Part shown: positions 31,405 to 58,701 of the stretch, piece by piece | How the letters are laid out: the number at the start of each line of letters is the position of its first letter | How positions within the stretch are numbered: the first letter of the stretch is position 1 | Assembly: GCA_001898965.1 (NCBI GenBank) | Contig: MKVW01000009.1 | Coordinates: 1,594,479 to 1,658,478 of the forward strand | DNA length: 64,000 nucleotides | Direction of reading: 5' to 3' | From: Rhizobiales bacterium 62-17 | Lineage (GTDB): Bacteria > Pseudomonadota > Alphaproteobacteria > Rhizobiales > Beijerinckiaceae | Translations under genes and position numbers: made by a program | Notes under the pieces: model-generated | What the model was told of the DNA's origin: nothing | Databases searched by the model: none | The model's input: only the letters and a program-made list of their open reading frames with translations

Positions 31405-31418
31405 TGCAGAATAATGCA
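31405..31418. promoter_or_regulatory. Candidate BoxR operator TGCA-N6-TGCA (DUF4863 side)
   Basis: TGCAGAATAATGCA lies 22 bases in front of the DUF4863 start. On the minus strand a TTGACT -35 sits at 31449-31444, so the site falls near the transcription start, as in the box promoter. Its reverse complement shares TGCATTAT with the site at 33327. BzdR/BoxR of Azoarcus are described to recognise TGCA-containing repeats. Confidence 0.6.
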
Positions 31419-31456
31419 GATTTCTTCCGTTAGAATTTCTCAAAGTCAAGAAGAAA

Positions 31457-31470
31457 TGCATTATATGACA
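31457..31470. promoter_or_regulatory. Candidate BoxR half-site TGCATTATAT (PaaG-like side)
   Basis: TGCATTATATGACA, 35 bases before the PaaG-like ATG. The 11-mer ATGCATTATAT (31456-31466) recurs exactly at 33326-33336 in the boxC promoter. It overlaps a -10-like TATATG. Confidence 0.55.
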
Positions 31471-31504
31471 TCACGACGGGTGTCTTGCGTCTAAGGAGAA
31501 GGTT

Positions 31505-32311
31505 ATGGCGGAACAACAGGAGCCCAGCATTCTCCTGCGCAAGGATGGTCCTGTCGGGCGCATTATTCTGTCTCGTCCGCAACGTCTCAACGCCTTGACC
31601 GCCGACATGCTGGACGCCTTGCAGGCGGCGCTGCGCGATCTCGATGGGGATGCAAGCATTCGCGCCATTGTGCTCACGGGCGCTGGCCGCGCGTTCTGTG
31701 CAGGTCAAGATCTCTCCGAGCGCGATCCCCGCCAGCGCAGCGAGCCTTTTGATCTCGAGGCGATCCAACGTCGCAGCTATCACCCGATCCTGCGGCTGAT
31801 GCGCTCGACACCCAAGCCCATCGTCACGGCCGTGAATGGCCTCGCGGCGGGTGCCGGCGTGGCGCTGGCGCTGGCCGGCGACATTGTGGTGATGCGCGAG
31901 AATGCTCGTCTGGTCTTCTCCTTCGTCAAAGTCGGGCTGTCTGTCGACGCCGGTTTGGGCTGGAGCCTGGTCAAGGCATTGGGGCCGGCCAAAGCGCGGC
32001 TGCTGTTGATGCTGGGCGGCGAACTGGCGGCACGCGACGCATCGTCGTCGGGGCTTGTCAGCGAATGTGTGGCCGACGATGCCTTTGAGGCGCATGTCGA
32101 AACGATCGTCCAGACGCTGTCAGCTGGCCCAGCGACGGCGCTGGCCGGATTGAAGCGGGCGGTGGAGGCAGCGGCGGCCGCGCCCGATTGGGAAAGCTAT
32201 CTCGACGTCGAAGCGAAATGCCAGGGCGCGGCAGGCTTTGATCCTGATTATCGCGAAGGCGTGCTGGCCTTTCTTGAAAAGCGCGCGCCCCGCTGGCGTG
32301 GGCTGGCCTGA
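31505..32311 (+). CDS. Enoyl-CoA hydratase/isomerase family, PaaG-like
   Basis: A 268-residue crotonase-fold protein. Oxyanion segments are IVLTGAGRAFCAGQDL and NGLAAGAGVALALAGD. Both Glu residues needed for hydration are replaced (Ala after GAGV; Lys in FVKVG), while LSVDAG keeps an Asp as in PaaG (LIPDCGG region). So it should be an isomerase: in the box pathway the 3,4-double bond of 3,4-dehydroadipyl-CoA must be shifted or hydrated, and this enzyme is a good candidate for the shift. The ATG follows TAAGGAGAAG. It abuts the convergent BoxR gene with no gap. Confidence 0.87.
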   Translation: MAEQQEPSILLRKDGPVGRIILSRPQRLNALTADMLDALQAALRDLDGDASIRAIVLTGAGRAFCAGQDLSERDPRQRSEPFDLEAIQRRSYHPILRLMRSTPKPIVTAVNGLAAGAGVALALAGDIVVMRENARLVFSFVKVGLSVDAGLGWSLVKALGPAKARLLLMLGGELAARDASSSGLVSECVADDAFEAHVETIVQTLSAGPATALAGLKRAVEAAAAAPDWESYLDVEAKCQGAAGFDPDYREGVLAFLEKRAPRWRGLA

Positions 32312-33217
32312 TCAAGCATGCGTTAAAGTCGCCGGCAGATCGAGAATTCGGTCGATCTCGTTCAGGCACGCTTCCGGCGAGAGATCCGTAGTGTCGACGA
32401 CGAATTCGGCACGCGCATATTCGTCCTCGCGCGAGATCAGCAGATTGCGGACGTGTTCGAGCGCGCGTGGCGCCGCCTTGATCGGGCGCATGTCGCCTTG
32501 ATTGATCACGCGCTGCAAATGCGCTTCTGGCGAAGCCTTCAGCCAGATCGTGCGGAATGACGAAATGATCGTACTCATCGCTTCTTTGTTGGCGACGATA
32601 CCGCCGGCGGTCTCGACGACGATGAAATCGCCGCGATTGAGAAGAGCATTGATCGCCTCGTTCTCCATGGCGCGATAGGCATCCGGGCCACCAAGATTGA
32701 ACAAATCGTCGAGGGAAATGCCGGTGCGCCGCTCGATCTCGCGTGTGACGCTGACGAAAGGCACGTTGTGGCGTGCCGCGAGCTGGCGACCGAGAGTCGA
32801 TTTGCCGGCACCGCGTAAGCCGAGCAGCGCCACGCCGCGTTGACCCCGCCGCCGTTCGGCGAGCCAGGTCTGGAGCGCGGGAATGCAGCTCTGCTGCTCA
32901 GCCCGCGACATGCTGCCGATCAAAGCGCCGAGATTTTCATCGATGGAAAGGTCCGTGGGGCGGGCGAAGGTGTCGCTGCCATCGTTCAGCAATTGCGTCA
33001 GCTCGACATCGAGCGCGGTCGCAATGCGCGACAGGACCGAAAGGCTGACATTCGATTCCGCCGCTTCAAGCTGAATGAGATAGCGCTCGGATATTCCGGC
33101 CGCCTCCACCACCTCCCGGCGGGACAAGCCGCGCAGGTCGCGCAGCGCCCGCACCTTCCGCCCGACGCGAACAGCCAAGTCTTCAGAATCGAGCGTTTCA
33201 TCAGATTTTATCGTCAT
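32312..33217 (-). CDS. boxR: BoxR/BzdR-type regulator (XRE HTH fused to shikimate-kinase-like domain)
   Basis: A 301-residue repressor of the benzoyl-CoA sensing type. Residues 20-75 form an XRE helix-turn-helix (LSRREVVEAAGISERYLIQLEAA); a linker at 85-125 leads to a C-terminal shikimate-kinase-like domain with P-loop GLRGAGKST at 133-141. Shikimate kinase activity is not expected: in BzdR this domain binds benzoyl-CoA and releases the DNA. The gene is divergent from boxC, with 151 bases between that contain a strong promoter and a TGCA site. Candidate sites also occur at 31405-31470 and 58645-58701, so its regulon may be wider than the box operon. Confidence 0.93.
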   Translation of the reverse strand: MTIKSDETLDSEDLAVRVGRKVRALRDLRGLSRREVVEAAGISERYLIQLEAAESNVSLSVLSRIATALDVELTQLLNDGSDTFARPTDLSIDENLGALIGSMSRAEQQSCIPALQTWLAERRRGQRGVALLGLRGAGKSTLGRQLAARHNVPFVSVTREIERRTGISLDDLFNLGGPDAYRAMENEAINALLNRGDFIVVETAGGIVANKEAMSTIISSFRTIWLKASPEAHLQRVINQGDMRPIKAAPRALEHVRNLLISREDEYARAEFVVDTTDLSPEACLNEIDRILDLPATLTHA

Positions 33218-33293
33218 TCATGAACCATAGTTCAGAAAAAGCAGGCGATCAAGAGCCGAAAGCAGGCTGGAACGAGAAAAATCACAAACTGTA

Positions 33294-33323
33294 TTGACTC
33301 TCACGCGCTGCGGTGCGTAGATA
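33294..33323 (+). promoter_or_regulatory. Promoter of the box operon
   Basis: A -35 TTGACT at 33294-33299 and -10 TAGATA at 33318-33323 with an 18-base spacer, 46 bases before the boxC ATG. The candidate BoxR site at 33327-33340 begins just after the -10, the geometry expected for steric repression. Confidence 0.6.
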
Positions 33324-33326
33324 ATA

Positions 33327-33340
33327 TGCATTATATCACC
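33327..33340. promoter_or_regulatory. Candidate BoxR operator in the boxC/boxR divergent region
   Basis: TGCATTATATCACC directly downstream of the -10 box. It shares the 11-mer ATGCATTATAT with the site in front of the PaaG-like gene (31456-31466), and TGCA-Y-TAT with those at 31405 and 58688. Located to control the divergent boxR as well as boxC. Confidence 0.6.
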
Positions 33341-33368
33341 TGTTTTGGGTCGGTGGGAGGGTTAATTC

Positions 33369-35069
33369 ATGAACTATCGCGCAGATCGGCCAACGGCCGC
33401 CGCCCAGCCTTCCGAGACGACGATCGACTTCCTGACGTCGCCCGATCGCTATCGGCACTGGAAGCTCACCGTGAACGGCGATGTCGCCGAACTCGTCATG
33501 GACGTGAACGAGAACGCGCCCCTGATGCAGGGCTATCAGCTCAAGCTCAATTCCTACGATCTGGGTGTCGACATCGAGCTGTCGGACGCGCTGCAGCGTC
33601 TGCGTTTCGAACATCCCGGCGTCAAAGTGGTGCTGCTCAAGTCGGGCAAGGACAAAGTGTTCTGCGCCGGCGCCAACATCCGCATGCTCGCTGCGGCGTC
33701 TCATGTGCACAAGGTGAACTTCTGCAAGTTCACCAACGAGACCCGCAACAGCATGGAGGATTCATCCGAGAACACCGGTCTCAAATTCCTCTGCGCCATT
33801 CGCGGAACGGCTGCCGGCGGTGGTTATGAACTGGCGCTGTCTTGCGACCACATCATTCTGTCCGACGACGGTTCATCTTCCGTCTCTCTGCCGGAAGTGC
33901 CGCTGCTGGCGGTTCTGCCGGGCACCGGCGGTCTCACCCGCGTCACCGATAAGCGCAAGGTGCGCCGCGATCGCGCCGACATTTTCTGCACGGTGGAAGA
34001 GGGCATCAAGGGCAAGCGCGCCGTCGAATGGCGCCTCGTCGATGAAGTGGTGCCGAACTCCAAGTTCGAGGCCGCCGTGCAATCGGCGGCGGCGGCACTG
34101 GCCGCCAAATCCGACCGTCCAGCCGACGAGAAGGGCATCATCTTGACGCCACTGTCGCGCGACATCGGCGCCGATCGCATCGCTTACTCCCTGGTCACGG
34201 TCGATCTCGATCGCGCGGCGCGCCGTGCCACCATCAAAGTGCTGGGCCCGCAGGATCCTGCGCCCGCCTCGGTCGCCGATGCCAAGGCGTTGGGCGCGCA
34301 ATTCTACAGCCTGCGTGTCGCCCGCGAGATGGACGACGCGATCGTCCATCTGCGGCTCAATGAACCGGAGATCGGCACCTGGGTGTTCCGCACCGAAGGC
34401 GACGCTGATCTCGTCTGCGCCTATGACCGCTTCCTGGAGCAGAACAGCAAGGATTGGTTCATCCGCGAAACCCTGCATTTCTGGAAGCGGGTGCTCAAGC
34501 GTATCGACGTTACCTCGCGCTCGCTGGTGGCTTTGATCGAAAGCGGATCGTGCTTCGCAGGTTCGCTCGCTGAAATCGCCTTCGCTTGCGACCGTTCTTA
34601 CATGTTCGCGGGCACGGTCACCGGCGGCAATCAATCCATGGCGCATATGACGCTGACGTCGTTGAATTTCGGCCAATACCCGATGTCCAATGGCCTGACG
34701 CGTCTCGAAACCCGTTTCCTCGGCGAGCCCGAAACCGTGGCGAAGGTGAAGGAGAAGATCGGCGAATCCCTCGACTCGTCCGATGCCGAACTGCTTGGCC
34801 TTGTCACCGAATCCTTCGACGAAGTCGATTGGGACGACGAAGTCCGTATCTTCCTTGAAGAGCGCACCAGCTTTTCGCCCGATGGTCTCGTTGGTCTCGA
34901 AGCCAATCTGCGTTTCGCTGGCCCCGAGACGATGGAAACCAAAATCTTCGGCCGTCTCACCGCTTGGCAAAACTGGATATTCCAGCGTCCCAATGCCGTC
35001 GGCGCCGATGGTGCGCTGAAGCGCTACGGCACGGGTCTCAAAGCCGAATACGACATCAAGCGCGTCTGA
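33369..35069 (+). CDS. boxC: 2,3-epoxybenzoyl-CoA dihydrolase (benzoyl-CoA-dihydrodiol lyase) BoxC
   Basis: A 566-residue cytosolic enzyme of the crotonase superfamily, in the size range of known BoxC (about 550). It uses two water molecules to open the ring of 2,3-epoxybenzoyl-CoA, giving 3,4-dehydroadipyl-CoA semialdehyde and formate. The sequence shows the N-terminal crotonase half (VVLLKSGKDKVFCAGANIRMLA, then GTAAGGGYELALSCDHIILSDDGSSSVSLPEV) and a second half with a related fold (LVALIESGSCFAGSLAEIAFACDRSYMF). The start follows GGGAGGG. First gene of boxC-boxB-boxA, 33 bases before boxB. Confidence 0.95.
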   Translation: MNYRADRPTAAAQPSETTIDFLTSPDRYRHWKLTVNGDVAELVMDVNENAPLMQGYQLKLNSYDLGVDIELSDALQRLRFEHPGVKVVLLKSGKDKVFCAGANIRMLAAASHVHKVNFCKFTNETRNSMEDSSENTGLKFLCAIRGTAAGGGYELALSCDHIILSDDGSSSVSLPEVPLLAVLPGTGGLTRVTDKRKVRRDRADIFCTVEEGIKGKRAVEWRLVDEVVPNSKFEAAVQSAAAALAAKSDRPADEKGIILTPLSRDIGADRIAYSLVTVDLDRAARRATIKVLGPQDPAPASVADAKALGAQFYSLRVAREMDDAIVHLRLNEPEIGTWVFRTEGDADLVCAYDRFLEQNSKDWFIRETLHFWKRVLKRIDVTSRSLVALIESGSCFAGSLAEIAFACDRSYMFAGTVTGGNQSMAHMTLTSLNFGQYPMSNGLTRLETRFLGEPETVAKVKEKIGESLDSSDAELLGLVTESFDEVDWDDEVRIFLEERTSFSPDGLVGLEANLRFAGPETMETKIFGRLTAWQNWIFQRPNAVGADGALKRYGTGLKAEYDIKRV

Positions 35070-35102
35070 CGCGTTAACGGCCTCATATTCAGGGAGCATA
35101 TC

Positions 35103-36572
35103 ATGTCGAGTTCCTCAGCAGCATTTGTCGAAGGCGCGGTGGATTATTCGACCCGGATTCCGAACAATGTCGGCCTCGTCAATGACGCGCGCGTCCTCAA
35201 GGCGATGGAGCAGTGGTATCCGAGCTACATCGATTGGTGGATGAACATGGGGCCGGACGGCTTCCAGACTTCCGACGTCTATCTGCGCACCGCGGTGTCG
35301 ATCGATCCGAAAGGATGGGCGCAGTTCGGCTATGTCAAAATGCCGGACTACCGCTGGGGCATTCTGCTGGCGCCGCAGGAAGAGAACCGGCTCGTCAATT
35401 TCGGTTCCAACAAGGGCGAGAAAGCCTGGCAGGATATTCCCGGCGAACATCGCGCCAGCCTGCGCCGGCTTGTCGTGATCCAAGGCGATACGGAACCCGC
35501 TTCCGTCGAACAGCAGCGGGCGCTCGGCGCCACCGCGCCATCGCTCTATGACATGCGCAATCTGTTCCAGGTCAATGTGGAAGAAGGCCGTCATCTGTGG
35601 GCGATGGTCTATCTGCTGCAGAAATATTTCGGCCGCGACGGCCGCGAAGAGGCCGAGGGTCTGTTGCAGCGTCGCTCCGGCGATCCCGACAAGCCGCGCA
35701 TGCTCGGCGCCTTCAACGAGGCAACGCCGGACTGGCTGTCCTTCTTCATGTTCACCTTCTTCACCGACCGTGACGGCAAGATGCAGCTCGAAAGCCTGGC
35801 GCAATCCGGCTTCGATCCGCTGTCGCGCACCTGCCGCTTCATGCTGACGGAAGAAGCGCATCACATGTTCGTCGGCGAGACCGGCGTCGGCCGCGTCATC
35901 GAGCGCACCTGCGAAGCCATGAAGGGGGCGGGGATCGACGATCCCTATGACATCGACCGCGTGCGCGCCCTGGGCGTCATCGATCTGCCGACCATTCAGA
36001 AGAAAGCCAATCTGCACTTCTCGCTGTCGCTCGATCTGTTCGGTTCGGAAATTTCGACCAATGCCGCCAATTTCTACAATGCCGGCCTAAAAGGCCGGTT
36101 CATGGAAACCAAGATCGACGACGATCACGTTCTGACCAATGCGACCTATTCGGTTCTGAAATATGTTGATGGCCAGATCCGCTATATCGATGAGCCGGCC
36201 TTGACCGCGCTCAACATGCGCCTGCGCGACGATTACGCCAAGGATTGCCAGGGCGGTGTCAATCGCTGGAACAAGGTCATCGAGAAATACGGCATCGACT
36301 TCAAACTGACCTTGCCGTCCGTCGCCTTCAACCGGCAGATCGGTGAATTCCGCAGCGTTCATACGTCGCCGGAAGCGCAGATCCTCAGCGACGAGGAATG
36401 GATTAAGAATCGCGACAAATGGCTGCCGTCATCGGACGATGGCGCCTTCATCCATACTTTGATGAAGCCGTGCTGGGAAAAGGGCCAATACGCCTCGTGG
36501 ATTTCGGCGCCGAAGGTTGGCGTCGACGGAAAGCCGGGTGATTTTGAATATGTCGCGATCCATCGCGGCTGA
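35103..36572 (+). CDS. boxB: Benzoyl-CoA 2,3-epoxidase, oxygenase subunit BoxB
   Basis: A 489-residue diiron oxygenase component that inserts one oxygen atom of O2 into benzoyl-CoA, forming the 2,3-epoxide. The two E-x-x-H iron-binding pairs are visible: residues 160-164 (EEGRH) and 250-254 (EEAHH). A third acidic ligand region is DTEPAS near 130. This ferritin-like helix arrangement matches Azoarcus evansii BoxB (473 residues) apart from small extensions. Start after AGGGAG. It works with the reductase BoxA, encoded 61 bases downstream, and the product goes to BoxC. Confidence 0.96.
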   Translation: MSSSSAAFVEGAVDYSTRIPNNVGLVNDARVLKAMEQWYPSYIDWWMNMGPDGFQTSDVYLRTAVSIDPKGWAQFGYVKMPDYRWGILLAPQEENRLVNFGSNKGEKAWQDIPGEHRASLRRLVVIQGDTEPASVEQQRALGATAPSLYDMRNLFQVNVEEGRHLWAMVYLLQKYFGRDGREEAEGLLQRRSGDPDKPRMLGAFNEATPDWLSFFMFTFFTDRDGKMQLESLAQSGFDPLSRTCRFMLTEEAHHMFVGETGVGRVIERTCEAMKGAGIDDPYDIDRVRALGVIDLPTIQKKANLHFSLSLDLFGSEISTNAANFYNAGLKGRFMETKIDDDHVLTNATYSVLKYVDGQIRYIDEPALTALNMRLRDDYAKDCQGGVNRWNKVIEKYGIDFKLTLPSVAFNRQIGEFRSVHTSPEAQILSDEEWIKNRDKWLPSSDDGAFIHTLMKPCWEKGQYASWISAPKVGVDGKPGDFEYVAIHRG

Positions 36573-36633
36573 ATAGGGCTCCGCCAAGGCCGTGGGCTCA
36601 GCCCGCGGCCGATCACGTGGAGGAGGAACGCGC

Positions 36634-37842
36634 ATGCCAGAGGATGTGGTTTCGTCGGAGCTGCGCAAGCAGCACCTTATCGACCCTGAGATCTGCATCA
36701 GGTGCAACACCTGCGAGGCCACTTGCCCCGTGGGCGCTGTGACGCATGACGACAACAACTATGTCGTCGATGCGGAGAAGTGCAATTTCTGCCTTGATTG
36801 CATCGCGCCATGCCCGACCGGCTCGATCGACAACTGGCGCGTCGTGCGCGCGGCCTGGTCTCTCGAAGATCAATTGGGTTGGAATGAACTGCCGCCGCAA
36901 GAGGACATTGCCGGCGATACCAGCCAACTGACCGGCGATGCGGTCGAGGATGAGATCGAGGCGCTGCTTGCCACCGCCCATGCAGGCGCCGGTGGTAAGG
37001 TCGGGCCGCCGGAATCGGCGGCGAAGCCGGCGGTCAATCTGTTCCGGCGGCCGAAGCCCGCCATTGCGGTGGTGCAGGGCAATTATCGCATCACGGCGCC
37101 GGACACCGAAAGCGATGTCCGCCATATCGTGCTCGGCTTTGGCGACACGCCGTTCCCCGTGCTGGAAGGCCAGTCGATCGGCATCGTGCCGCCGGGTACA
37201 CGCGCCGACGGCAAGCCGCATGATGTGCGTCTCTATTCCATTGCTTCGGCCCGCGACGGCGAAAAACGCAGCGCCAACAATCTGGCGCTCACGGTGAAGC
37301 GCGTTCCTGGCGGTGTCGGCTCCAACTACGTCTGTGATCTCAAGATCGGCGACAAAGTGCAGGTGACCGGACCATTCGGCGCCACCTTCCTGATGCCCAA
37401 TGCCCATGATGCCAATGTCATTATGATTTGCACGGGCACGGGATCGGCGCCGTTCCGCGCCTTCACCGAGCAACGCCGCCGCACGGGTCAGAACGCGACC
37501 GGCAAATTCGTGCTGCTCTTCGGCGCGCGCACGCCGCAGGAGCTGCCTTACTTCGGCCCTCTGCAAAAGGTGCCGGATTCGCTTCTGGAGAAGCATCTCG
37601 TCTTTTCCCGCGTGCCAGGCAGCGACAAGGAATATGTGCAGGATCGCATCCGCCGGGAGGCGGCGGATATGGGCGCGCTTCTGCAATCCCCCAAAACCCA
37701 TATCTTCATCTGCGGCCTGAAGGGCATGGAGGCAGGCGTCGACGAGGCTTTGGCCGATGTCTGCCGCAAGCACCGGCTCGATTGGACGGCATTGAAACCG
37801 GATATGCGCGCGCAAGGTAGGTTCCATGTTGAAACCTATTGA
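36634..37842 (+). CDS. boxA: Benzoyl-CoA 2,3-epoxidase, reductase subunit BoxA
   Basis: A 402-residue iron-sulfur flavoprotein that passes electrons from NADPH to BoxB. The N-terminus has two 4Fe-4S motifs (CIRCNTCEATCP at about 22-33 and CNFCLDCIAPCP at about 51-62). The rest is a ferredoxin-NADP reductase domain: FAD motif RLYSIAS, glycine motif ICTGTGSAPFRAFTEQRR for NADP, and C-terminal HVETY typical of the family. The ATG at 36634 follows GGAGGAGG; an upstream ATG has no family residues. It overlaps the thioesterase gene by 17 bases. Confidence 0.95.
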   Translation: MPEDVVSSELRKQHLIDPEICIRCNTCEATCPVGAVTHDDNNYVVDAEKCNFCLDCIAPCPTGSIDNWRVVRAAWSLEDQLGWNELPPQEDIAGDTSQLTGDAVEDEIEALLATAHAGAGGKVGPPESAAKPAVNLFRRPKPAIAVVQGNYRITAPDTESDVRHIVLGFGDTPFPVLEGQSIGIVPPGTRADGKPHDVRLYSIASARDGEKRSANNLALTVKRVPGGVGSNYVCDLKIGDKVQVTGPFGATFLMPNAHDANVIMICTGTGSAPFRAFTEQRRRTGQNATGKFVLLFGARTPQELPYFGPLQKVPDSLLEKHLVFSRVPGSDKEYVQDRIRREAADMGALLQSPKTHIFICGLKGMEAGVDEALADVCRKHRLDWTALKPDMRAQGRFHVETY

Positions 37843-38290: not shown

Positions 38291-38327
38291 AACGGACCAT
38301 GTAACGATCAATCGAGGAGGGGAAAGC

Positions 38328-39512: not shown

Positions 39513-39521
39513 ATGAAACGG

Positions 39522-39545: not shown

Positions 39546-39574
39546 TCCTGTCCTCGCTCGAATGAAGGACTGTC

Positions 39575-42989: not shown

Positions 42990-43016
42990 GAGGGAGGCCA
43001 GAGGGAGGACTTGCAG

Positions 43017-46308: not shown

Positions 46309-46425
46309 GCCGGCGTTTTTGCCGGGGTTCGAGAAAAGCCTGGCCGGATTTGAACGATCCGGACCGCTGGTTGGCTTTCCGAAGGGGATTGGACTCGCCC
46401 CGGTCCAACCAGTGGAGGGATGTCG

Positions 46426-47664: not shown

Positions 47665-47678
47665 CCGGAGCGAACGCG

Positions 47679-47704
47679 GCTGGGCATCGTCGGCGATGCC
47701 CAGC
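47679..47704 (+). terminator. Intercistronic hairpin after second binding-protein gene
   Basis: An 11-bp stem (GCTGGGCATCG at 47679-47689, CGATGCCCAGC at 47694-47704) with a 4-base loop and no T-run. Same place as the hairpin in the first HAAT operon, so probably it also favours the binding protein. Confidence 0.6.
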
Positions 47705-47729
47705 TTGAACGCTCCCGGAGCTTGAAAAT

Positions 47730-48671: not shown

Positions 48672-48674
48672 GTC

Positions 48675-50695: not shown

Positions 50696-51399
50696 TGCTC
50701 GATATTGCCAATCTGCACGCTGCCTACGGCCATATCAAAGTCTTGAACGGCGTCACCTTCCAGGTGCCGAACGGTTCGATCGCCACCATCTTGGGACGCA
50801 ACGGTTCCGGCCGTTCCTCGACCTGCAAGGCGGTGATGGGCCTCTTGCCGCCCTCGCGCGGCACGGTGAAACTCGGCGGCCGCGAACTCGCCGGTATGCC
50901 CGCCCACGAGATTGCTCATGCCGGTATCGGCTATGTCCCCGAGGATCGGCAGATTTTCCGCAACCTCACGGTCGATGAGAATATGACCATCGGAGTCAAG
51001 GCCGGCGTCTCGCCGCGCCCGGCCTGGACGCGCGATGAACTCTACGATGTGTTTCCACGCCTGCGCGAACGGCGCAACATCAAGGCCGGCTTTTTGTCGG
51101 GCGGCGAACAGCAGATGCTCACTCTGTTCCGTTCCCTGCTCGGCAATCCCGATGTCATGCTGATCGATGAGCCGACTGAAGGGCTTGCGCCGAAAGTTAT
51201 CGACGCCCTGGCCGAAACCATTCTGGAGATGAAACGGCGCGGCCTGGCGATTCTTCTGCTCGAGCAGAAACTCTCCATGGTCATGCGACTGACCGACAAG
51301 GTTTTTGTCATGGGCCGAGGCGAGATCGTCTTTTCTGGCTCCGTCGCCGAATTCCAGGCGAATGATGTCGTGCGGAGCACCTGGCTGGAAGTAAGCTGA
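50695..51399 (+). CDS. livF: HAAT ABC transporter ATPase LivF-type, Arg in Walker A
   Basis: A 234-residue LivF with signature LSGGEQQMLTLFRSLL and Walker B VMLIDEPTEGLAPK. The P-loop reads GRNGSGRSST: Arg (codon CGT) stands where Lys is invariant in most ABC ATPases. A similar Arg occurs, to my knowledge, in some HAAT LivF proteins, so the protein may bind nucleotide normally, or the pair may rely on the LivG site. VLILDE-type Walker B and the LivF switch region are otherwise intact. Last gene of the second transporter, 52 bases before the FadB-like gene. Confidence 0.9.
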   Translation: MLDIANLHAAYGHIKVLNGVTFQVPNGSIATILGRNGSGRSSTCKAVMGLLPPSRGTVKLGGRELAGMPAHEIAHAGIGYVPEDRQIFRNLTVDENMTIGVKAGVSPRPAWTRDELYDVFPRLRERRNIKAGFLSGGEQQMLTLFRSLLGNPDVMLIDEPTEGLAPKVIDALAETILEMKRRGLAILLLEQKLSMVMRLTDKVFVMGRGEIVFSGSVAEFQANDVVRSTWLEVS

Positions 51400-51451
51400 A
51401 TCCTAAGGCACATTCGTCGAACCGTTTCGTCATGCATTCAAAGGGTAAATT

Positions 51452-53518
51452 GTGATCACCTGGGCCCGGACGGAAGACATCGCCGTCGTCACCATCGATA
51501 ATCCGCCGGTGAATGCCGGTTCCCATGCCGTGCGCCAGGGACTGTTGCAGGCCTTGACCGAGATCGCCGCGACACAGGGACTTGCAGGCGTCGTGCTCAT
51601 CGGTGCGGGCAAGACCTTCATCGCGGGCTCCGACATCAAGGAATTTGGCGCGCCGCTCAGCGAACCACAATTGCCGGCGGTGATTGCCGCCATCGAGGCT
51701 TTGCCGCTTCCTGTTGCTGCGGCCATTCATGGCGCGGCGCTTGGCGGTGGTTATGAGCTGACCTTGGGGTGCGATCTGCGCGTCGCTCATCGCAAAGCGG
51801 TGGTGGGCCTGCCGGAAGTCAGCCTGGGCATGTTTCCGGGCGCCGGCGGCACGCAGCGTTTGCCGCGCCTGACCGGCATCGCCAAGGCGATCGAAGTGAT
51901 TTGCGATTCACGTCGGGTGCCGGCGGAAGAAGCTTTGAAGATCGGCATGATCGACGCGATCAGCGATGGCGATCTGTTGCAGGACACGATCGCCGCATTG
52001 CGCAAATTCAACCGCAAGCGGCGTCTGGGCGACGAACCGGTGCCGGCCTTCGACCTCGCGCAGGCGAAAGATGTTGCCAAAAAAGCCGTTGCCAAAGCCA
52101 AGGGGCGCCCTGCGGCCGTGCAGGCCGCCGATCTCGTTCTCTTGGCGTCGCAAAAGCCTTTCGGCGAGGCGCTGACGATCGAGCGCGCGGCTTTCCAAGA
52201 GATTCGCGTGTCGCTGGAAGCCTTCGCGATCCGGCATTTGTTCTTTGCCGAGCGCAAGGCGAGCAAGATCGACAATGTGTCGGACGGCAAGCTGACGCTC
52301 GAACGCTGCGCCGTTATCGGTGCCGGCACGATGGGGGCCGGCATTGCTTACGCCTTGTTGAATGCGGGACTTACCGTCACCGTGGTCGAACAAGGGCGGG
52401 ATGCACTCGCCGCGGGCAAGGCTCGGTTGGAAGGGTTGTTGTCTGTTGATCTTGACCGCAAGCGTTTGACCGTCGAGCGGGCCGAGCAATTGCGCGGCCG
52501 CCTTGCTTTCGCCGACGATTTGGCAGCCGTGGCAGCAGTCGATCTGGTGATCGAAGCTGTCTACGAGGATATAGCGGTCAAAAAGCAATTGGTTGGTCGC
52601 CTCGGCGAAATCGTCAAACCCGGCGCGATCGTTGCCACCAACACATCCTATCTAGACGTCGATGAACTGGCTGCGGTCCTGCCGCATCCCGAGCGTTTCC
52701 TCGGCCTGCATTTCTTCAGCCCGGCGCATATCATGAAATTGCTCGAAGTGGTGCGCGGCAAAGCCACCAGTGATGCTACTTTGGCGATCGGCCTGGCGCT
52801 GGCCAAACGGCTCGGCAAACAGGCCGTCGTCGCCGGCAATGCTTATGGCTTCATCGGTAACCGCATCTACAATGCCTATCGCCGGCATTCGGAATTCTTG
52901 ATCCAGGACGGCGCGACGCCGGAGGCCGTCGATCGAGCCATGACCGCCTTTGGCATGGCGATGGGGCCTTTCGCCGTTACCGACCTTTCCGGGCTCGATA
53001 TCGCTTATCGCATGCGCAAGGCCACGGCCGCTTCGCGCGATCCCAAGGCGCGTTATGTCGATATCGCCGACCGTCTTTGTGAGGCAGGGCGGATCGGCCG
53101 CAAGAGCGGCGCCGGCTATTACACTTATGCCGACGGTAAGCCGGCGATCGATCCGATTGTGGCGGGGATCATCGCGACATCGCGTAAAGAAGCCGGCGTG
53201 ACGCCGCGCGCCATCGATGACGACGAGATTCGCGCCCGCTGTCTCGGCGCCATGGTCAATGAAGCCGCGCTACTGCTATCGGAAGGCGTGGCGCAGCGCG
53301 CTTCCGACATCGACGTGACTCTCGTTCATGGCTATGGCTTCCCGCGTTGGACGGGCGGACCGCTGTGGTGGGCCGCGCATGTATCGCCAGATGTACTGGC
53401 CGATGCCTTGGCGAAGACGGCTAAGGCCGAAGGGGCGACATTCCGCGCGGGCGATGTCGCCTCCGCGCTCAAGGACCTGGCGCCGACGCGCGCCGATCGG
53501 ATTAAGGAGACCGTGTGA
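51452..53518 (+). CDS. FadB-like multifunctional 3-hydroxyacyl-CoA dehydrogenase/enoyl-CoA hydratase
   Basis: A 688-residue fusion. Residues 1-180 form a crotonase domain with both catalytic Glu residues (GGGYELTLG, Glu102; GLPEVSLG, Glu122). From about residue 290 a Rossmann domain begins (CAVIGAGTMGAGIAYALLNAGLTVTVVE), followed by HFFSPAHIMKLLEVV and the helical HAD domains. It hydrates enoyl-CoA esters and oxidises the 3-hydroxy product to 3-oxoacyl-CoA. In the box pathway this would convert dehydroadipyl-CoA to 3-oxoadipyl-CoA. The GTG start is after AAAGGGTAA. It overlaps the next crotonase by one base; no thiolase gene follows. Confidence 0.92.
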   Translation: MITWARTEDIAVVTIDNPPVNAGSHAVRQGLLQALTEIAATQGLAGVVLIGAGKTFIAGSDIKEFGAPLSEPQLPAVIAAIEALPLPVAAAIHGAALGGGYELTLGCDLRVAHRKAVVGLPEVSLGMFPGAGGTQRLPRLTGIAKAIEVICDSRRVPAEEALKIGMIDAISDGDLLQDTIAALRKFNRKRRLGDEPVPAFDLAQAKDVAKKAVAKAKGRPAAVQAADLVLLASQKPFGEALTIERAAFQEIRVSLEAFAIRHLFFAERKASKIDNVSDGKLTLERCAVIGAGTMGAGIAYALLNAGLTVTVVEQGRDALAAGKARLEGLLSVDLDRKRLTVERAEQLRGRLAFADDLAAVAAVDLVIEAVYEDIAVKKQLVGRLGEIVKPGAIVATNTSYLDVDELAAVLPHPERFLGLHFFSPAHIMKLLEVVRGKATSDATLAIGLALAKRLGKQAVVAGNAYGFIGNRIYNAYRRHSEFLIQDGATPEAVDRAMTAFGMAMGPFAVTDLSGLDIAYRMRKATAASRDPKARYVDIADRLCEAGRIGRKSGAGYYTYADGKPAIDPIVAGIIATSRKEAGVTPRAIDDDEIRARCLGAMVNEAALLLSEGVAQRASDIDVTLVHGYGFPRWTGGPLWWAAHVSPDVLADALAKTAKAEGATFRAGDVASALKDLAPTRADRIKETV

Positions 53519-54279
53519 TGGCTTTGATCGTCGACAAGAAAGACAAGGTGGCAACGGTGACGATCGATCGGCCGCCGGTGAATGCCATCACTCTGGCGAT
53601 CTACGAGGAGATCGCCGAGACGTTCGAAGCCGCCGCTGGTTGGGCCGACATCAATTGCATCGTCTTCACCGCTGTCGGCAGCAAGGCATTCTGCGCCGGG
53701 CTTGATCTCAACGAATTCCTTGCCGCGAAGGTGGAAGATGATCCGGCACGCGCGAAAATCATTCGCCGCTGCTTCAGCGCCGTGCGCCAGGCCGCCGTGC
53801 CGGTGATCGGCGCCATCAATGGCCCGGCGTTGGGTGCGGGCTGCGTCCTGGCCTCGGTCTGCGACGTGCGCATCGCCGCCGAGAATGCCACCTTCGGCAT
53901 GCCGGAGATCAACGTCGGCCGGTGCGGTGGCGCGGCTCACATGGCCCGTCATCTGCCGCAAGGCCTGCTACGCAAAATGTATTTCACCGGCCGTCCGATC
54001 GATGCGCGAGAAGCCTGGCGCATCGGTTTCGTCCAGGATGTCGTGCCCTTCGATGATCTGTCACGCACCGCGCAGGAACTTGCCACGCTGATCGGCTCTA
54101 AGGCGCCGATTGGCCTACGCATGGCGAAGGAAGCTTTGAACAAAGTCGAATTCATGCAGACCGAAGAGGGCTATGAACTCGAACAAGGCTATTCGACCAA
54201 ACTGATGGCGACGGAAGATGCGCGTGAGGCGACGCGCGCCGTCGTGGAAAAGCGCGCGCCGGTTTGGGTGGGACGCTGA
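53518..54279 (+). CDS. Enoyl-CoA hydratase/isomerase family protein
   Basis: A 253-residue crotonase. Oxyanion residues are in FTAVGSKAFCAGLDL and NGPALGAGCVLASVC. The Glu corresponding to Glu144 of rat hydratase is Val110, while the Glu164 equivalent (Glu130, GMPEINVG) is kept. That pattern fits an isomerase, lyase or decarboxylase rather than a simple hydratase. The ATG at 53518 follows AAGGAGA; a GTG at 53515 is possible. It overlaps its neighbours on both sides and shares the operon with the FadB-like enzyme. Confidence 0.9.
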   Translation: MALIVDKKDKVATVTIDRPPVNAITLAIYEEIAETFEAAAGWADINCIVFTAVGSKAFCAGLDLNEFLAAKVEDDPARAKIIRRCFSAVRQAAVPVIGAINGPALGAGCVLASVCDVRIAAENATFGMPEINVGRCGGAAHMARHLPQGLLRKMYFTGRPIDAREAWRIGFVQDVVPFDDLSRTAQELATLIGSKAPIGLRMAKEALNKVEFMQTEEGYELEQGYSTKLMATEDAREATRAVVEKRAPVWVGR

Positions 54280-55052
54280 TGCTCAATCATCGTATCGAAC
54301 GCGCCGCTCTCGAACACGGTGGCGATACCGCGCCCTGGATTGTCTTCGGCAATTCGCTGATGACCGATCTGAGTCTTTGGGACGCGCAGGTCGCGGCGCT
54401 CGCCGGCCGCTTCAACATCTTGCGTTACGATCAGCGCGGACATGGCGCTTCCGCCGTGCCGGACGAATTGCAGACGATCGAACTGCTGTCGGACGACCTC
54501 ATCGCTCTGCTCGATCACTGCAAGATCGCTACCTGTACCTATGTCGGCCTCTCCATGGGCGTGCCGACAGGCCTCGCCGCTTATCGCAAGGCGCCGACGC
54601 GGTTCGAGCGGCTTATCCTGGTCGACGGGCAGGCGAGCAGTTCCGCCGCGAGCAAGGCAGCTTGGGAAGAACGCATCGCCTTCGCAAAGGCCAATGGCAT
54701 GGTGGCCATGGCGGATCAGACGGTGCGGCGTTGGCTGCGGCCGGAGCGGGTCGCGCAGCCGCTCGGCGAACGGCTTCATGCGATGATCGCCGCGACGCCG
54801 CTGGACGGTTTCGTCGCCTGCGCCACCGCGTTGCAGAACTATGATGAAGTGGCGGTGCTCGCGCGCGTGGCTGTGCCGGCTTTGTTGCTGGTCGGCCAGG
54901 AAGACGGCGCCATGCCGGCGACCATGCAGGCCATGGCGGCGGCGATTCCCGGCGCCACCATCCAGGAGATCGCCGATGCGGGCCATCTCCCTAATTACGA
55001 GCGTCCGGACATGTTCAACGAGATTCTTCTGTCATTTCTGAAAGTTAGCTGA
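54279..55052 (+). CDS. Alpha/beta hydrolase, 3-oxoadipate enol-lactonase (PcaD)-like
   Basis: A 257-residue hydrolase similar to PcaD in layout: YDQRGHGASAVPDELQTIELLSDDLIALLDH, nucleophile elbow GLSMG (Ser near residue 94), acid in VGQEDGAMP and His in DAGHLPNYERP. PcaD opens the enol-lactone of the 3-oxoadipate pathway. No protocatechuate dioxygenase, cycloisomerase or other pca gene is here, and a CMD-like gene follows two genes later, so a different lactone or ester is likely. The ATG overlaps the crotonase stop by one base. Confidence 0.85.
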   Translation: MLNHRIERAALEHGGDTAPWIVFGNSLMTDLSLWDAQVAALAGRFNILRYDQRGHGASAVPDELQTIELLSDDLIALLDHCKIATCTYVGLSMGVPTGLAAYRKAPTRFERLILVDGQASSSAASKAAWEERIAFAKANGMVAMADQTVRRWLRPERVAQPLGERLHAMIAATPLDGFVACATALQNYDEVAVLARVAVPALLLVGQEDGAMPATMQAMAAAIPGATIQEIADAGHLPNYERPDMFNEILLSFLKVS

Positions 55053-55082
55053 TCAAGCATTAAAAATCATAAACATAACTTA

Positions 55083-55112
55083 TTGACTATTTGGCGGCCC
55101 TGTTTCTACAGT
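55083..55112 (+). promoter_or_regulatory. Promoter-like element before the GST gene
   Basis: TTGACT at 55083-55088, 18-base spacer and TACAGT at 55107-55112. If used, transcription would begin near 55119, after the in-frame GTG at 55111, which supports the TTG at 55162 as the GST start. Confidence 0.4.
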
Positions 55113-55161
55113 GCCGCAGGTTCACCAGGCGGTACGCCCGCCCAGTTCGGATTCGTCGGTT

Positions 55162-55824
55162 TTGAAACTCTATTGGTCCCCCAAATCGCCGTTCGTGCGG
55201 AAGGTCATGATCGTGCTTCATGAGCTGGGCTTGGCGGACCAGGTCACGCTGGTGCGCACCGTGGCGACACCGCGCGGGACACCCAATCCGGTCATTCTCT
55301 CCGAGAATCCGTTGGGCAAGATTCCTGTCTTGTTTGTCGATGGTTTGCCGCCGCTGTTCGATTCCGCTGTCATTGCCGAATATCTCGTCGGTCTGGCGCG
55401 CGAAGGTATGCGCCTTCTGCCGGCAGCGGGGCCGGAACGCTTCGCGCAATTGCGTTGGCAGGCTTTGGGCGATGGCCTCACCGATAATCTGTTGTTGTGG
55501 CGGATCGAGCGGCAGAGCGCGTCGGGTGGCGATCTTGAAACCATCCTGTCCTATCGGGCCAAGGTCTATGCCGCGATGCGAGTGCTGGAAGCCGAAGCGC
55601 CTCGTCTGCGCGAGTCGTTCGGTGTGGGTCAGATCGCCATTCTCTGCGCCTTGGGGCAGCTTGATTTCCGCTTTGCGCAGTGTGGCTGGCGCGCGGCGCA
55701 TCCGACACTGGCGCAATGGGAAGCCGATGTCGCCAAGCGGCCTTCGCTTGAGGCTTTGCCGATCGTCAATGATCAAGAGGCCGATGCCGGCCCGCACATG
55801 CACTTGAATTTTGGGGAGGACTGA
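55162..55824 (+). CDS. Glutathione S-transferase family protein
   Basis: A 220-residue protein from the TTG at 55162, giving LKLYWSPKSPFVRKVMIVLHELGL, the typical GST N-terminus with the SPF active site. The cis-proline motif NPLGKIPVLFVDG and DSAVIAEYLVG follow, then the helical domain. A GTG at 55111 would add 17 residues but overlaps the promoter-like element. Directly before the CaiB-type gene with a 2-base gap. GST may isomerise or detoxify a pathway intermediate; its reaction is unknown. Confidence 0.87.
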   Translation: MKLYWSPKSPFVRKVMIVLHELGLADQVTLVRTVATPRGTPNPVILSENPLGKIPVLFVDGLPPLFDSAVIAEYLVGLAREGMRLLPAAGPERFAQLRWQALGDGLTDNLLLWRIERQSASGGDLETILSYRAKVYAAMRVLEAEAPRLRESFGVGQIAILCALGQLDFRFAQCGWRAAHPTLAQWEADVAKRPSLEALPIVNDQEADAGPHMHLNFGED

Positions 55825-55826
55825 TT

Positions 55827-57035
55827 TTGGCGGGACCGCTTTCGCACATCAGGGTGCTCGATTTGAGCCGCATCATGGCGGGGCCATGGTCGGGCCAGAT
55901 TCTGGCTGACCTCGGCGCTGATGTCATCAAGGTGGAACGCACTGGCGAAGGCGATGACACGCGTCGCTGGGGACCGCCGTATCTCAAGGGCGCCGACGGC
56001 AACGCGACCAAGGAATCGGGCTATTATCTTTCGGTCAATCGCGGCAAGCGCTCGGTCGAAGTCGATATCTCGACACCAGCGGGCCAGGAGGTCATTCGCG
56101 CATTGGCGAAGACCTCCGATATTCTGCTCGAAAATTTCAAGTCGGGCACTTTGGCGCGTTATGGCCTCGGCTATGAGGATTTGAAAGCGATCAATCCCGG
56201 TCTCATCTATTGTTCGATCACGGGCTTTGGCACGACCGGTCCGAAACAGGCCGATGTCGCTTATGATTTCATGATCCAGGCGATGGGTGGCCTGATGAGC
56301 GTCACGGGCGAACGCGATGGCGTTCCAGGCGGCGGTCCGCAAAAGGTCGGCGTGCCGATCGTCGACATCATGACCGGCATGTATGCGACCATAGCGGTGC
56401 TCGCCGCTCTGGCGCGTCGCAGCCAGAGCGGCGTCGGCGATTTCATCGATATCGCCATGCTGGATGTTTCGGTGGCGATGCTCGCCAATCAGGCGATGAA
56501 CTATCAGGTGTCGGGCCGGACGCCGATCCGTCGCGGCAACAAACATCCCAATATCCAGCCGCAGGATGTTTTCCCGGTGGCGGATGGTCACATCGTTCTG
56601 GCCGTCGGCAATGACGAACAGTTCCGCCGCTTCGCCGAAGTACAGGGCCGGCCCGAATGGGCCGACGATCCCAGATTCTCCACCAATGCGGCGCGCGTCA
56701 CCCATCTCGATATTCTGCATCCGATGATCTGCGAACGTTTCGCCACGCAGCCATTGCAGTATTGGCTGGAGCATCTCGGTGCGGCTAAAGTGCCGTGCGG
56801 GCCGATCAACACCATTCCAATGGTGTTCGAGGAACCGCAGGTGAAACATCGCGAGATGCTGCGACATCTGCCGCATCCGATCGCTGGCACCGTGCCTCAG
56901 GTGGTGAGCCCCATGCGCTTCACCAATGCACCGCTGGCCTTTGAAAAAGCACCGCCGCTGCTGGGGCAGCACACCCTTGAGATTTTGAACGAGCTCGGTC
57001 TCGCGACAAAGATGGATAAAGTAGGCCGCGCATGA
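55827..57035 (+). CDS. CaiB/BaiF-family CoA transferase
   Basis: A 402-residue family III CoA transferase. DLSRIMAGPWSGQILADLGADVIKVER at the N-terminus and VAYDFMIQAMGGLMSVTGERDG with the catalytic Asp (about residue 150) are diagnostic. It moves CoA between carboxylic acids without ATP and could activate the hydrolase product or recycle CoA from succinyl-CoA. The TTG start follows GGGGAGGACT. It ends with ATGA overlap on the CMD-like gene. Confidence 0.93.
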   Translation: MAGPLSHIRVLDLSRIMAGPWSGQILADLGADVIKVERTGEGDDTRRWGPPYLKGADGNATKESGYYLSVNRGKRSVEVDISTPAGQEVIRALAKTSDILLENFKSGTLARYGLGYEDLKAINPGLIYCSITGFGTTGPKQADVAYDFMIQAMGGLMSVTGERDGVPGGGPQKVGVPIVDIMTGMYATIAVLAALARRSQSGVGDFIDIAMLDVSVAMLANQAMNYQVSGRTPIRRGNKHPNIQPQDVFPVADGHIVLAVGNDEQFRRFAEVQGRPEWADDPRFSTNAARVTHLDILHPMICERFATQPLQYWLEHLGAAKVPCGPINTIPMVFEEPQVKHREMLRHLPHPIAGTVPQVVSPMRFTNAPLAFEKAPPLLGQHTLEILNELGLATKMDKVGRA

Positions 57036-57640
57036 AAACCGGAGCACGCATTTCTCTGCCTGACACCGACGGCATGAACGACGCACAGCGCCGGGTGTTC
57101 GATGGCATCGTCAACGGCAAGCGTGGCGAGTTGGTCGGCCCACTCCGCGCGGCGTTGCACAACCCGGAATTGGCGGAGCGCTGGAGCAAGCTCGGCGAGA
57201 GCCTGCGTTTTCAGACGCGCATTCCGCCACGCCTGAGCGAACTCGCCGTGCTGATGACGGCGCGCGCTTGGAATAGCGACCTCGAATGGGGCGTGCATCG
57301 CCGCGCCGCCGAAAGCCACGGGCTCGAGGTCGGGATCATCGACGCGCTGCGCGATGGCCGTGTTCCTCCCTTCAAGGAAGAAGCCGACCGGGAAGTCTAT
57401 CGCTTCGTCGCCGAGCTTTTGACGCGCGCCTATGTGGAAGACGCGGCTTATGCCGCAGTCGTCGCGCGTTGGGGCGAGGGCGGCGTCATGGAGCTGACGG
57501 CGCTCGTTGGCTACTATTGCATGGTGGCGATGACGTTGAACGTCCATCGCATTCCCTTGCCGACAGGTGTTAGCGCGGAATTGCTGCCGTCAGGCCGTTT
57601 TCCGGCAAGCTTCACGGCTCTGCCGCCCTTGGCGGAGTGA
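57032..57640 (+). CDS. Carboxymuconolactone decarboxylase (CMD)-like protein
   Basis: A 202-residue AhpD/CMD-like helical protein: ELAVLMTARAWNSDLEWGVHRRAAESHGLEVGIIDALRDG matches the conserved CMD core with Glu and His, but the peroxiredoxin-like Cys pair of AhpD is absent. CMD acts next to PcaD in the classical 3-oxoadipate pathway; here both flank a GST and CoA transferase instead of pca genes. A long C-terminal part (FKEEADREVYRFVAELL and beyond) resembles the larger CMD-like proteins of unknown function. Overlaps the CoA transferase by 4 bases. Confidence 0.85.
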   Translation: MKTGARISLPDTDGMNDAQRRVFDGIVNGKRGELVGPLRAALHNPELAERWSKLGESLRFQTRIPPRLSELAVLMTARAWNSDLEWGVHRRAAESHGLEVGIIDALRDGRVPPFKEEADREVYRFVAELLTRAYVEDAAYAAVVARWGEGGVMELTALVGYYCMVAMTLNVHRIPLPTGVSAELLPSGRFPASFTALPPLAE

Positions 57641-57693
57641 GGCCGCGCGCCGGTAGTCGCTCTTGCTTCTTGCGTTCCTGCTTTTGAATGCAA

Positions 57694-57722
57694 AAACAGC
57701 ATATGCTATACAATTGCTGTTT
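57694..57722. promoter_or_regulatory. Candidate HutC-type operator AAACAGCA-N13-TGCTGTTT
   Basis: Perfect 8-bp inverted repeat in front of the GntR/UTRA gene (start 57776), containing the palindrome AGCATATGCT at 57699-57708. HutC-family regulators often bind dyads in their own promoters. No second copy was found in the window. Confidence 0.5.
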
Positions 57723-57775
57723 AGCACGGCCGCCGTTTTGAGTGTCGGATAGGTGCAGCCATCAAGGAGGAGCGT

Positions 57776-58531
57776 TTGTCCAGCACGGTAGTCCGGTCTG
57801 CCTCGACCGCCGAAGCGCTGAAAAAAAGCGCGGTTGCCCGCTATATTCAGCTCGCCACCCTGTTTCGCCGCCGCATTGAGACCGGCGAGTGGAGTGTCGG
57901 CTCGAAAATGCCGACCGTCGAGGAGCTCGCCCAGGAATGCGGCGTCGCCACCATGACGATTCGTCAGGCGCTGGACATTTTGGAGAATGACGGTCTCATC
58001 GAGCGCTACCGCGCCAAGGGCACGTTCGTGCGCGAGCGGCCGGCGCAGGATCTGTGGTGCCAGGTTCAGACCGATTGGAGCGGCATGCTGATCGCGCGCG
58101 ACAATGCGCGCATCGAGGTGCTGTCCGACGAGCGCAACGTGAAATTGCCGCCGGGTCATCGCCAGCTTGGGCGCCCGGCCGAGGCTTATCGTCATCTGCG
58201 CCGTCGCCACACCCGTGATGGCGAAGCTTTTCTTCTGGCCGATGTCTATGTCTCCGAGCGGGTCTGCCCGCTGATCCCGGAAGAGGCCTACACGTCCAAG
58301 ACCGCGATGCGTTTGGTTGCCGACATTCCGGGCATCGAGATCACCGACGCCACCCAGACATTGACGATCGGCAGCGCCGATCTGATGACCTCCGATCTTC
58401 TCAACATTCCCTTGAGCCATCCGATTGCCAAGGTGGAGCGTTGCGCTGTGGATGGCGAGGGCGAACTGGTCATCGTCGCCGATGGCATCTATCGCGGCGA
58501 CAAGGTGCGCGTCGATCTGAAGCTGCGATAG
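57776..58531 (+). CDS. GntR-family regulator, HutC type (UTRA domain)
   Basis: A 251-residue regulator. The winged helix (ATLFRRRIETGEWSVGSKMPTVEELAQECGVATMTIRQALDILENDGLI) spans about residues 25-80; a UTRA effector domain follows, with the duplicated sheet segment TLTIGSADLMTSDLLNIPLSHPIAKVERCAVD. TTG start follows AAGGAGGAG. An inverted repeat in its leader suggests autoregulation. Likely targets are the adjoining CoA transferase/CMD operon on one side and the ligase gene (58748) on the other. The ligand is unknown. Confidence 0.92.
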   Translation: MSSTVVRSASTAEALKKSAVARYIQLATLFRRRIETGEWSVGSKMPTVEELAQECGVATMTIRQALDILENDGLIERYRAKGTFVRERPAQDLWCQVQTDWSGMLIARDNARIEVLSDERNVKLPPGHRQLGRPAEAYRHLRRRHTRDGEAFLLADVYVSERVCPLIPEEAYTSKTAMRLVADIPGIEITDATQTLTIGSADLMTSDLLNIPLSHPIAKVERCAVDGEGELVIVADGIYRGDKVRVDLKLR

Positions 58532-58545
58532 ATTCCTGTTTCAAT

Positions 58546-58568
58546 GCGTTTTCTTCGCTCGAAAACGC
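58546..58568 (+). terminator. Hairpin after GntR gene
   Basis: Stem GCGTTTTC (58546-58553) and GAAAACGC (58561-58568), 7-base loop, then CTATAAG. There is no T-run, so termination would be weak. Confidence 0.45.
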
Positions 58569-58624
58569 TATAAGCCACCCGAAAAGTACCTCTCTCCCAA
58601 CGCGATTTCGCGTGATCGCATGCA

Positions 58625-58652
58625 TTGACGGCCGTCGAGTGGCGTGTATTAT
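58625..58652 (+). promoter_or_regulatory. Promoter of the feruloyl-CoA-synthetase-like gene
   Basis: -35 TTGACG at 58625-58630, 16-base spacer, -10 TATTAT at 58647-58652. The -10 is embedded in the first TGCA-type operator at 58645-58658, so a bound BoxR-like repressor would block RNA polymerase. Confidence 0.55.
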
Positions 58653-58658
58653 TTTGCA
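58645..58658. promoter_or_regulatory. Candidate BoxR operator 1 before ligase gene
   Basis: TGTATTATTTTGCA (TGTA-N6-TGCA), overlapping the -10 box. Its reverse complement matches the site at 31405 in all but a few positions. Confidence 0.5.
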
Positions 58659-58687
58659 TGAAGATGGCCCGGGCGTTGAGGGAATTC

Positions 58688-58701
58688 TGCACTATTATGC
58701 A
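58688..58701. promoter_or_regulatory. Candidate BoxR operator 2 before ligase gene
   Basis: TGCACTATTATGCA (TGCA-N6-TGCA), a 4-bp inverted pair, 43 bases after site 1 (four helical turns). Extended, TCTGCA-N6-TGCA agrees with the reverse complement of the site at 31405-31418. Confidence 0.55.

Follow-up and report, generated by a model that had tools for sequence, protein, structure and literature searches.

Does a repressor encoded among the box genes of benzoate breakdown also control a gene 25 kb away? This question is raised by a stretch of 64,000 nucleotides from Rhizobiales bacterium 62-17 (C9:1594479-1658478; the genome, G000, comprises 5.66 Mb in 9 contigs), referred to below, at its full length, as the window. 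Here a boxR gene at 32312 adjoins box genes, with a PaaG-like gene on one side and boxC and boxB on the other, and a CoA ligase gene, termed LIG, begins at 58748. An initial annotation had found five related 14-bp sites in three promoters, and had concluded from them that BoxR represses the box-side genes and LIG. The five sites are likely to be operators of a BoxR-family repressor that counts LIG among its targets. Since a spaced pair of box-type operators precedes LIG, 25 kb away, this gene is probably switched together with benzoate breakdown. LIG is probably a detached new target of a known regulator, perhaps within a regulon shared by two repressors.

The five 14-mers were verified at the coordinates claimed for them, and two weaker sites absent from the initial annotation were found at boxR and boxC. 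The scores below come from the matrix described in the next paragraphs, and fractions give the agreement with a plain 14-bp consensus.

31405-31418: candidate BoxR-type operator TGCAGAATAATGCA, about 21 bp before the start of the DUF4863/PnbB-type gene; matrix rank 1, 22.2; 12/14
31457-31470: candidate BoxR-type operator TGCATTATATGACA, good in one half, about 34 bp upstream of the PaaG-like gene; rank 5, 16.2; core alone 11.2; 11/14
33221-33234: weaker site TGAACCATAGTTCA, palindromic, where boxR begins; may serve autoregulation; 10.2
33327-33340: candidate BoxR-type operator TGCATTATATCACC with one good half, before boxC; rank 3, 16.6; core alone 9.2; 10/14
33370-33383: weaker site TGAACTATCGCGCA, where boxC begins, with a 43-bp spacing to 33327; 10.5
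58645-58658: candidate BoxR-type operator TGTATTATTTTGCA, over the -10 element of the ligase promoter; rank 4, 16.3; 11/14
58688-58701: candidate BoxR-type operator TGCACTATTATGCA, 46 bp before the ligase start; rank 2, 18.6; 12/14

The five ranked sites are whole or half copies of TGCA-N6-TGCA, with TGCATTATAATGCA as the symmetric ideal, and exact TGCA-N6-TGCA occurs twice in the window, at 31405 and 58688. The description of BzdR and BoxR operators as TGCA-containing repeats is borne out by the TGCA-N6-TGCA operator published for this family, in the available text of two papers (PMC6449761, PMC6678401). An exact repeat, ATGCATTATAT, was likewise confirmed at 31456-31466 and 33326-33336, and TGCATTATAT has two occurrences in the genome, both inside the window. 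The sites 31405 and 31457 are spaced 52 bp apart, and 58645 and 58688 are spaced 43 bp apart.

The matrix was derived from the best 80 listed loci around boxB from named genomes, 74 of which have a usable region upstream of boxC and 6 of which do not. A site of at least 11/14 precedes boxC in 64 of the 74 usable regions, compared to 3.7% of random stretches from the same loci. The matrix has 20 columns, built from 45 unique 20-mers upstream of boxC, and its core consensus is TGCATTATAATGCA. The genome under study and a second genome of the genus, G022, were excluded, and one same-genus genome (L086) was included. Matrix scores were computed on the window and on retrieved stretches, and whole-genome counts come from pattern matching. 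Over the window, the five sites take ranks 1 to 5, followed by 33370 and 33221, and five scores of at least 16 were observed where 0.067 are expected per 64 kb. A third-order model of the genome predicts 3.7 single sites of at least 16 per genome, and 0.00014 pairs in which both sites reach 16 and lie within 60 bp of each other.

These numbers bear on the simplest alternative, that the sites are chance AT-rich words in promoters. With about 3.7 single sites expected per genome, others do exist, and 9 of 13 other near-consensus places examined, among the matches listed, lie inside open frames. Single sites prove little, because others scoring at least 16 occur in the genome, and the weight rests on pairing. 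The five sites, however, fall in close pairs within one 64-kb window, and for a looser pattern chosen post hoc, TGHANTATNNTDCA, 4 of 18 distinct genome places are in the window, compared to none for the reversed control. We regard this alternative as exceedingly improbable; chance is rejected for the site set, though not for every single site. Other pattern counts are as follows. Exact TGCA-N6-TGCA occurs at 59 genome places against 37 for the reversed control, among the matches listed. The pattern TGCANWATWNTGCA has 5 exact genome places, 2 of them in the window, and 21 places with at most one mismatch against 3 for its reversed control.

Spacing and promoter position were also compared. Site pairs across the 80 loci show helical phasing (Rayleigh R 0.67 over 56 unique pairs, about 1e-11), although these pairs are not independent because many come from Bradyrhizobium. 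The 52-bp window pair matches the mean phase; the spacings of 43 bp (58645/58688) and, once the weak sites are counted, of 106 and 43 bp (33221/33327/33370) deviate from it by about 2 bp. The initial annotation had placed several sites at or just after -35 and -10 elements. This holds for 58645, where a promoter scan found the sigma-70-like promoter TTGACG-16-TATTAT at 58625-58652, with its -10 inside the site; in the other two site regions, no sigma-70-like promoter was found by the scan criteria.

The ligase gene and its immediate neighbor are the following.

57776-58531, plus strand: GntR/UTRA regulator next to LIG (PF00392 and PF07702)
58748-60610, plus strand: LIG, putative acyl/aryl-CoA ligase of a box-linked clade, related to PRK12582 (assigned from 756 bits against a cut-off of 777, the tree and the box linkage)

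LIG had been labeled feruloyl-CoA-synthetase-like, a name that goes with PRK12582. It matches that family over nearly its whole length, yet it scores below the curated cut-off and belongs to a box-linked clade of its own, and the label is at best tentative. This clade stands apart from most homologues of 40-50% identity, including a second homologue in the same genome. In a tree of 48 proteins, LIG is sister to proteins of Afipia and of family f26, Bradyrhizobium included (99/92), and the clade of its genus-mates lies farther out. Searches of solved structures returned only distant ligases, shikimate kinases and XRE domains, and gave no closer hint of the LIG substrate.

Counts from other genomes tie the clade to box genes. 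Searches at an E value of 1e-200 detected it in 17 genomes of the order sample (397 genomes) and in 4 of the class sample (385 genomes), with the genome under study included, which gives 18 non-own ligase genomes found without regard to box genes. All 18 carry boxB, which lies within 45 kb of the ligase in 15. Within the order sample, boxB is present in 63 of 397 genomes overall and in 17 of 17 ligase genomes, with a hypergeometric value of 3e-15 that overstates the link because 13 of the 17 belong to one genus (as do 13 of the 18 in the unbiased set). Twelve further ligase genomes were reached through boxB or BoxR matches, and their box genes therefore prove nothing. Counting the 18, these 12 and the genome under study, ligase and boxB lie within 45 kb of each other in 24 of 31 genomes, and in G066 ligase and boxR share one 11-kb contig.

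The arrangement of these loci varies. The ligase follows boxA in G003, G013, G015 and G700, and in G034, whose ligase gene is partial and is left out of the totals of 30 and 31, it stands behind a lactonase gene with sites 51 bp apart before it. Operator-like sites precede the cluster in four of these five genomes; the G015 contig begins inside boxB. In Afipia (G068), the ligase has its own operator pair, with scores of 25.0 and 18.6 and a spacing of 41 bp, and in G069 a more distant ligase (49%) is preceded by one site of 33.6. Across the 30 non-own ligase loci, within about 1.5 kb, one has its own pair (G068) and four lie behind boxA.

The GntR/UTRA regulator at 57776 could instead be the true local regulator of LIG, with the TGCA pair incidental. 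The two genes adjoin on the same strand, about 216 bp apart, which is what this explanation has in its favor. However, at the other loci examined no relative of the GntR gene was found near the ligase (within about 1.5 kb), nor was one found in the 19 kb around the Afipia ligase, which has a like operator pair, and the LIG pair of the window is far beyond chance. Control by this neighbor in place of BoxR is therefore quite improbable.

Several observations weigh against BoxR control of LIG, beside the predominance of one genus given above. Neither an operator pair nor placement behind boxA was found within about 1.5 kb at 25 of the 30 non-own ligase loci, most of them Bradyrhizobium by name or place in the tree, and G022 is without a close LIG orthologue, its best homologue (50%, contig C2) being a long branch that joins the base of the LIG clade. 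The matrix is not wholly independent, as the criterion for its training sites was their similarity to a consensus derived from the window. With consensus matching alone, only 31405 and 58688 are clear of chance; a place at 57679 equals 31457 and 58645 at 11/14, and 33327, at 10/14, is at the chance level, with about 8 expected. The matrix scores of 31457 and 33327 come largely from the flanking columns. At least 6 further places score 16 or more in the retrieved stretches of this genome, most of which were retrieved for their sites, and TGCATTATAATGCA with at most 3 mismatches has 61 genome places against 40 for the reversed control, among the matches listed. Finally, the genome encodes a second BoxR, which complicates attribution to the protein at 32312. 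The claim that the regulon is wider than the box operon stands on the LIG pair and the box-linked clade, and is weakened by the 25 loci at which neither arrangement was found.

In a search at 1e-40, the genome contains two BoxR-family proteins, which are 37% identical. Their genes are given here.

32312-33217, minus strand: boxR, XRE-type helix-turn-helix with a shikimate-kinase-like domain (PRK08154, 283 bits against a cut-off of 204; HTH_3 1.6e-10, SKI 7.1e-31)
C6:456982-457779: second BoxR-family gene, on contig C6

A tree of 77 BoxR proteins places the window BoxR together with its G022 counterpart on a long branch (1.94), apart from their genus-mates, and the C6 BoxR with the BoxR of genus-mates and of two other families (97/92). 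From these positions we infer that the box cluster of the window may have been acquired and that the C6 BoxR may be the inherited repressor. All 77 proteins have S43, R45, E51 and N56 in the helix-turn-helix, and 74 have Y46 and Q49. Positions 47, 48 and 52-55 differ between the two BoxR proteins of this genome. Position 48 is isoleucine in the window BoxR and alanine in 72 of 77 proteins, the C6 protein included, so the operator specificity of the two may differ. Both may read the same operators, or they may not.

These differences allow a reading in which the LIG pair is served mainly by the C6 BoxR, as the inherited box repressor of the genus, and the protein at 32312 acts on its own cluster only. 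The tree and the isoleucine fit this reading, and the ligases of genus-mates sit in clusters with a C6-type BoxR. Moreover, a perfect palindrome, TGTATTATAATACA (C6:457983-457996, L145:15983; 20.0), precedes the C6 BoxR and hydroxyacyl-CoA dehydrogenase genes, and 58645 carries a TGTA half as at C6-type promoters and is similar to TGTAATATTTTGCA, which G013 and G020 have at their BoxR/BclA promoters. Of 21 sites in genus-mates, 5 have TGTA-type halves, compared to 5 of 82 sites elsewhere, a weak, post hoc difference (Fisher 0.028). On the other side, the stronger LIG site, 58688, is a plain TGCA pair, LIG groups with Afipia and the Bradyrhizobium-type family f26 and not with genus-mates, and the four invariant residues are shared by both repressors. 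We consider this division of labor unlikely. The acting BoxR is most likely the protein at 32312, perhaps together with the C6 copy. The BoxR-like operators of the original proposal are supported, as is the LIG pair, which is far above chance; 32312 as sole repressor is unproven in view of the second BoxR on C6. A site related to the C6 palindrome is also present in G022 (L151:6118).

Control of the box-side genes was assessed by comparison with G022, whose BoxR is 88% identical to that of the window. These genes are the following.

30098-30904, minus strand: alpha/beta hydrolase, lactonase-type gene of BoxR clusters (Abhydrolase_6 4.2e-12)
30901-31383, minus strand: DUF4863/PnbB-type gene (PF16155 6.8e-43)
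31505-32311, plus strand: PaaG-like enoyl-CoA hydratase/isomerase (TIGR02280 248.6 bits, under the cut-off of 345)
33369-35069, plus strand: boxC (TIGR03222, 945 bits against a cut-off of 712)
35103-36572, plus strand: boxB (TIGR03225, 886 bits against a cut-off of 499)
36592-37842, plus strand: boxA-type ferredoxin/FAD/NAD reductase (Fer4, FAD_binding_6, NAD_binding_1; named by position and domains)
43011-44600, plus strand: bclA, benzoate-CoA ligase family (TIGR02262, 763 bits against a cut-off of 375)
44597-46171, plus strand: gene matching PRK11903 (640 bits, cut-off 444) and PaaN-DH (712 bits, cut-off 563)

Each of the five box-side sites, the two weak ones included, has a counterpart in G022, and the 52-bp spacing is kept.

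L149:12782: counterpart of 31405; 27.2
L149:12834: counterpart of 31457, with the 52-bp spacing kept
L149:14643: counterpart of 33221, TGAACTGTAGTTCA; 9.7
L149:14737: counterpart of 33327; 20.5
L149:14780: counterpart of 33370; 12.1

The retention of these sites lends good support to the prediction that BoxR controls the hydrolase/DUF4863 pair, the PaaG-like gene, boxR and boxC. The conservation of 33370 may be coding, since this site covers the first boxC codons.

In the proposed mechanism, BoxR dimers would bind TGCA-N6-TGCA elements paired a few helical turns apart. On the box side, the genes held by such dimers would be the hydrolase/DUF4863 pair, the PaaG-like gene, boxR and the boxC operon. 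At the LIG promoter, one dimer would lie over the -10 element and a second about four turns downstream, at 58688. By analogy with the inducer of BzdR, benzoyl-CoA would release BoxR. LIG and the genes that follow it (for the aldo-keto reductase and the aldehyde dehydrogenases), presumably co-transcribed, would then be induced with the box pathway, and the LIG route would feed further aromatic acids or aldehydes towards it. The genes behind LIG suggest such a feeder route from aldehydes or acids; across or beyond the window end, they continue with another aldehyde dehydrogenase, a short-chain dehydrogenase and a cupin gene.

60725-61756, plus strand: aldo-keto reductase, 3′ of LIG (Kv_beta 151 bits, under the cut-off)
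61781-63286, plus strand: aldehyde dehydrogenase, 3′ of LIG (PRK13473 365 bits, under the cut-off)

It is possible, if rather doubtful, that the genome has one regulon with two BoxR proteins, one acquired with the box cluster and also present in G022, the other inherited and located beside a hydroxyacyl-CoA dehydrogenase gene. Ligases of the same broad family would then have come under BoxR by three or more routes within one genus: in genus-mates by standing behind boxA or the lactonase gene, in G022 behind boxD (a different, 43% ligase), and here through a detached pair. Such a variety of routes in one genus would suggest that an upper-pathway ligase has repeatedly been recruited to the benzoyl-CoA signal. 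If the detached pair before this box-linked ligase acts as proposed, the signal would also gate upper routes into the box pathway. The two repressors and three promoters offer a ready assay for operator sharing between an acquired and an inherited repressor, and the comparison draws attention to a clade of ligases linked with this pathway.

Much of this resembles known systems, within the available text of the two reports. In the BoxR regulons of Betaproteobacteria (Suvorova and Gelfand 2019, PMC6449761), the motif is ATGCACTATAGTGCAT, with sites mainly 3-5 turns apart. The XRE and shikimate-kinase repressor, the TGCA-N6-TGCA palindrome, the multiple sites and the targets boxCBA, lactonase and pfam16155 genes are all as here, the latter two genes being already part of those regulons. 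BoxR targets are given there as divergent clusters that include boxR, and some genomes have two boxR copies. In the present genome, by contrast, sites also lie at the detached promoter of a ligase, at a distance of 25 kb, and at a second locus headed by a BoxR gene, on a different contig. The matrix consensus here is TGCATTATAATGCA, from mostly alphaproteobacterial genomes, and the published form is the same. For BzdR at the PN promoter of Azoarcus sp. CIB, benzoyl-CoA is the inducer (PMC6678401). That system likewise has TGCA(N6)TGCA (at OR2 and OR3) and several dimers per promoter, but it concerns anaerobic bzd genes and three operator regions with binding shown, whereas the evidence here consists of sequence sites. 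Among the matches listed in the open-licence PMC literature, no title or abstract describes such a detached link between BoxR and a ligase.

The region between the box genes and LIG (46420-57640) encodes a second ABC transporter of the branched-chain type, two hydratases or dehydrogenases, a hydrolase, a glutathione S-transferase and a class III CoA-transferase. A matrix scan of this region found no site of at least 9, the best being 8.97 at 55056.

Elsewhere in the genome, three intergenic near-consensus places flank genes with no evident benzoate link, namely an EutA-like gene, a thiamine pyrophosphate (TPP) enzyme with an SbmA/BacA-type ABC gene, and another ABC gene. The first is a single site of 19.9 at C9:1530599, and the second is a single site of 16.3 at C3:528623; the 14-mers of both also occur in G022. 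The ligase of G022 behind boxD lies at L150:7671-9395 and belongs to the same broad family as LIG. Two BoxR-like sites of 21.8 and 13.5, 124 bp apart, precede an acyl-CoA dehydrogenase gene at C9:1860983-1861120 (L204:14983 and 15107). No site of at least 9 was found at the other 9 genus-mate loci of this gene, among which L216 is without upstream DNA, and G022 has a like pair of 15.9 and 21.8, 125 bp apart. In G851, boxA is flanked by two boxB copies (L195:14738-18904).

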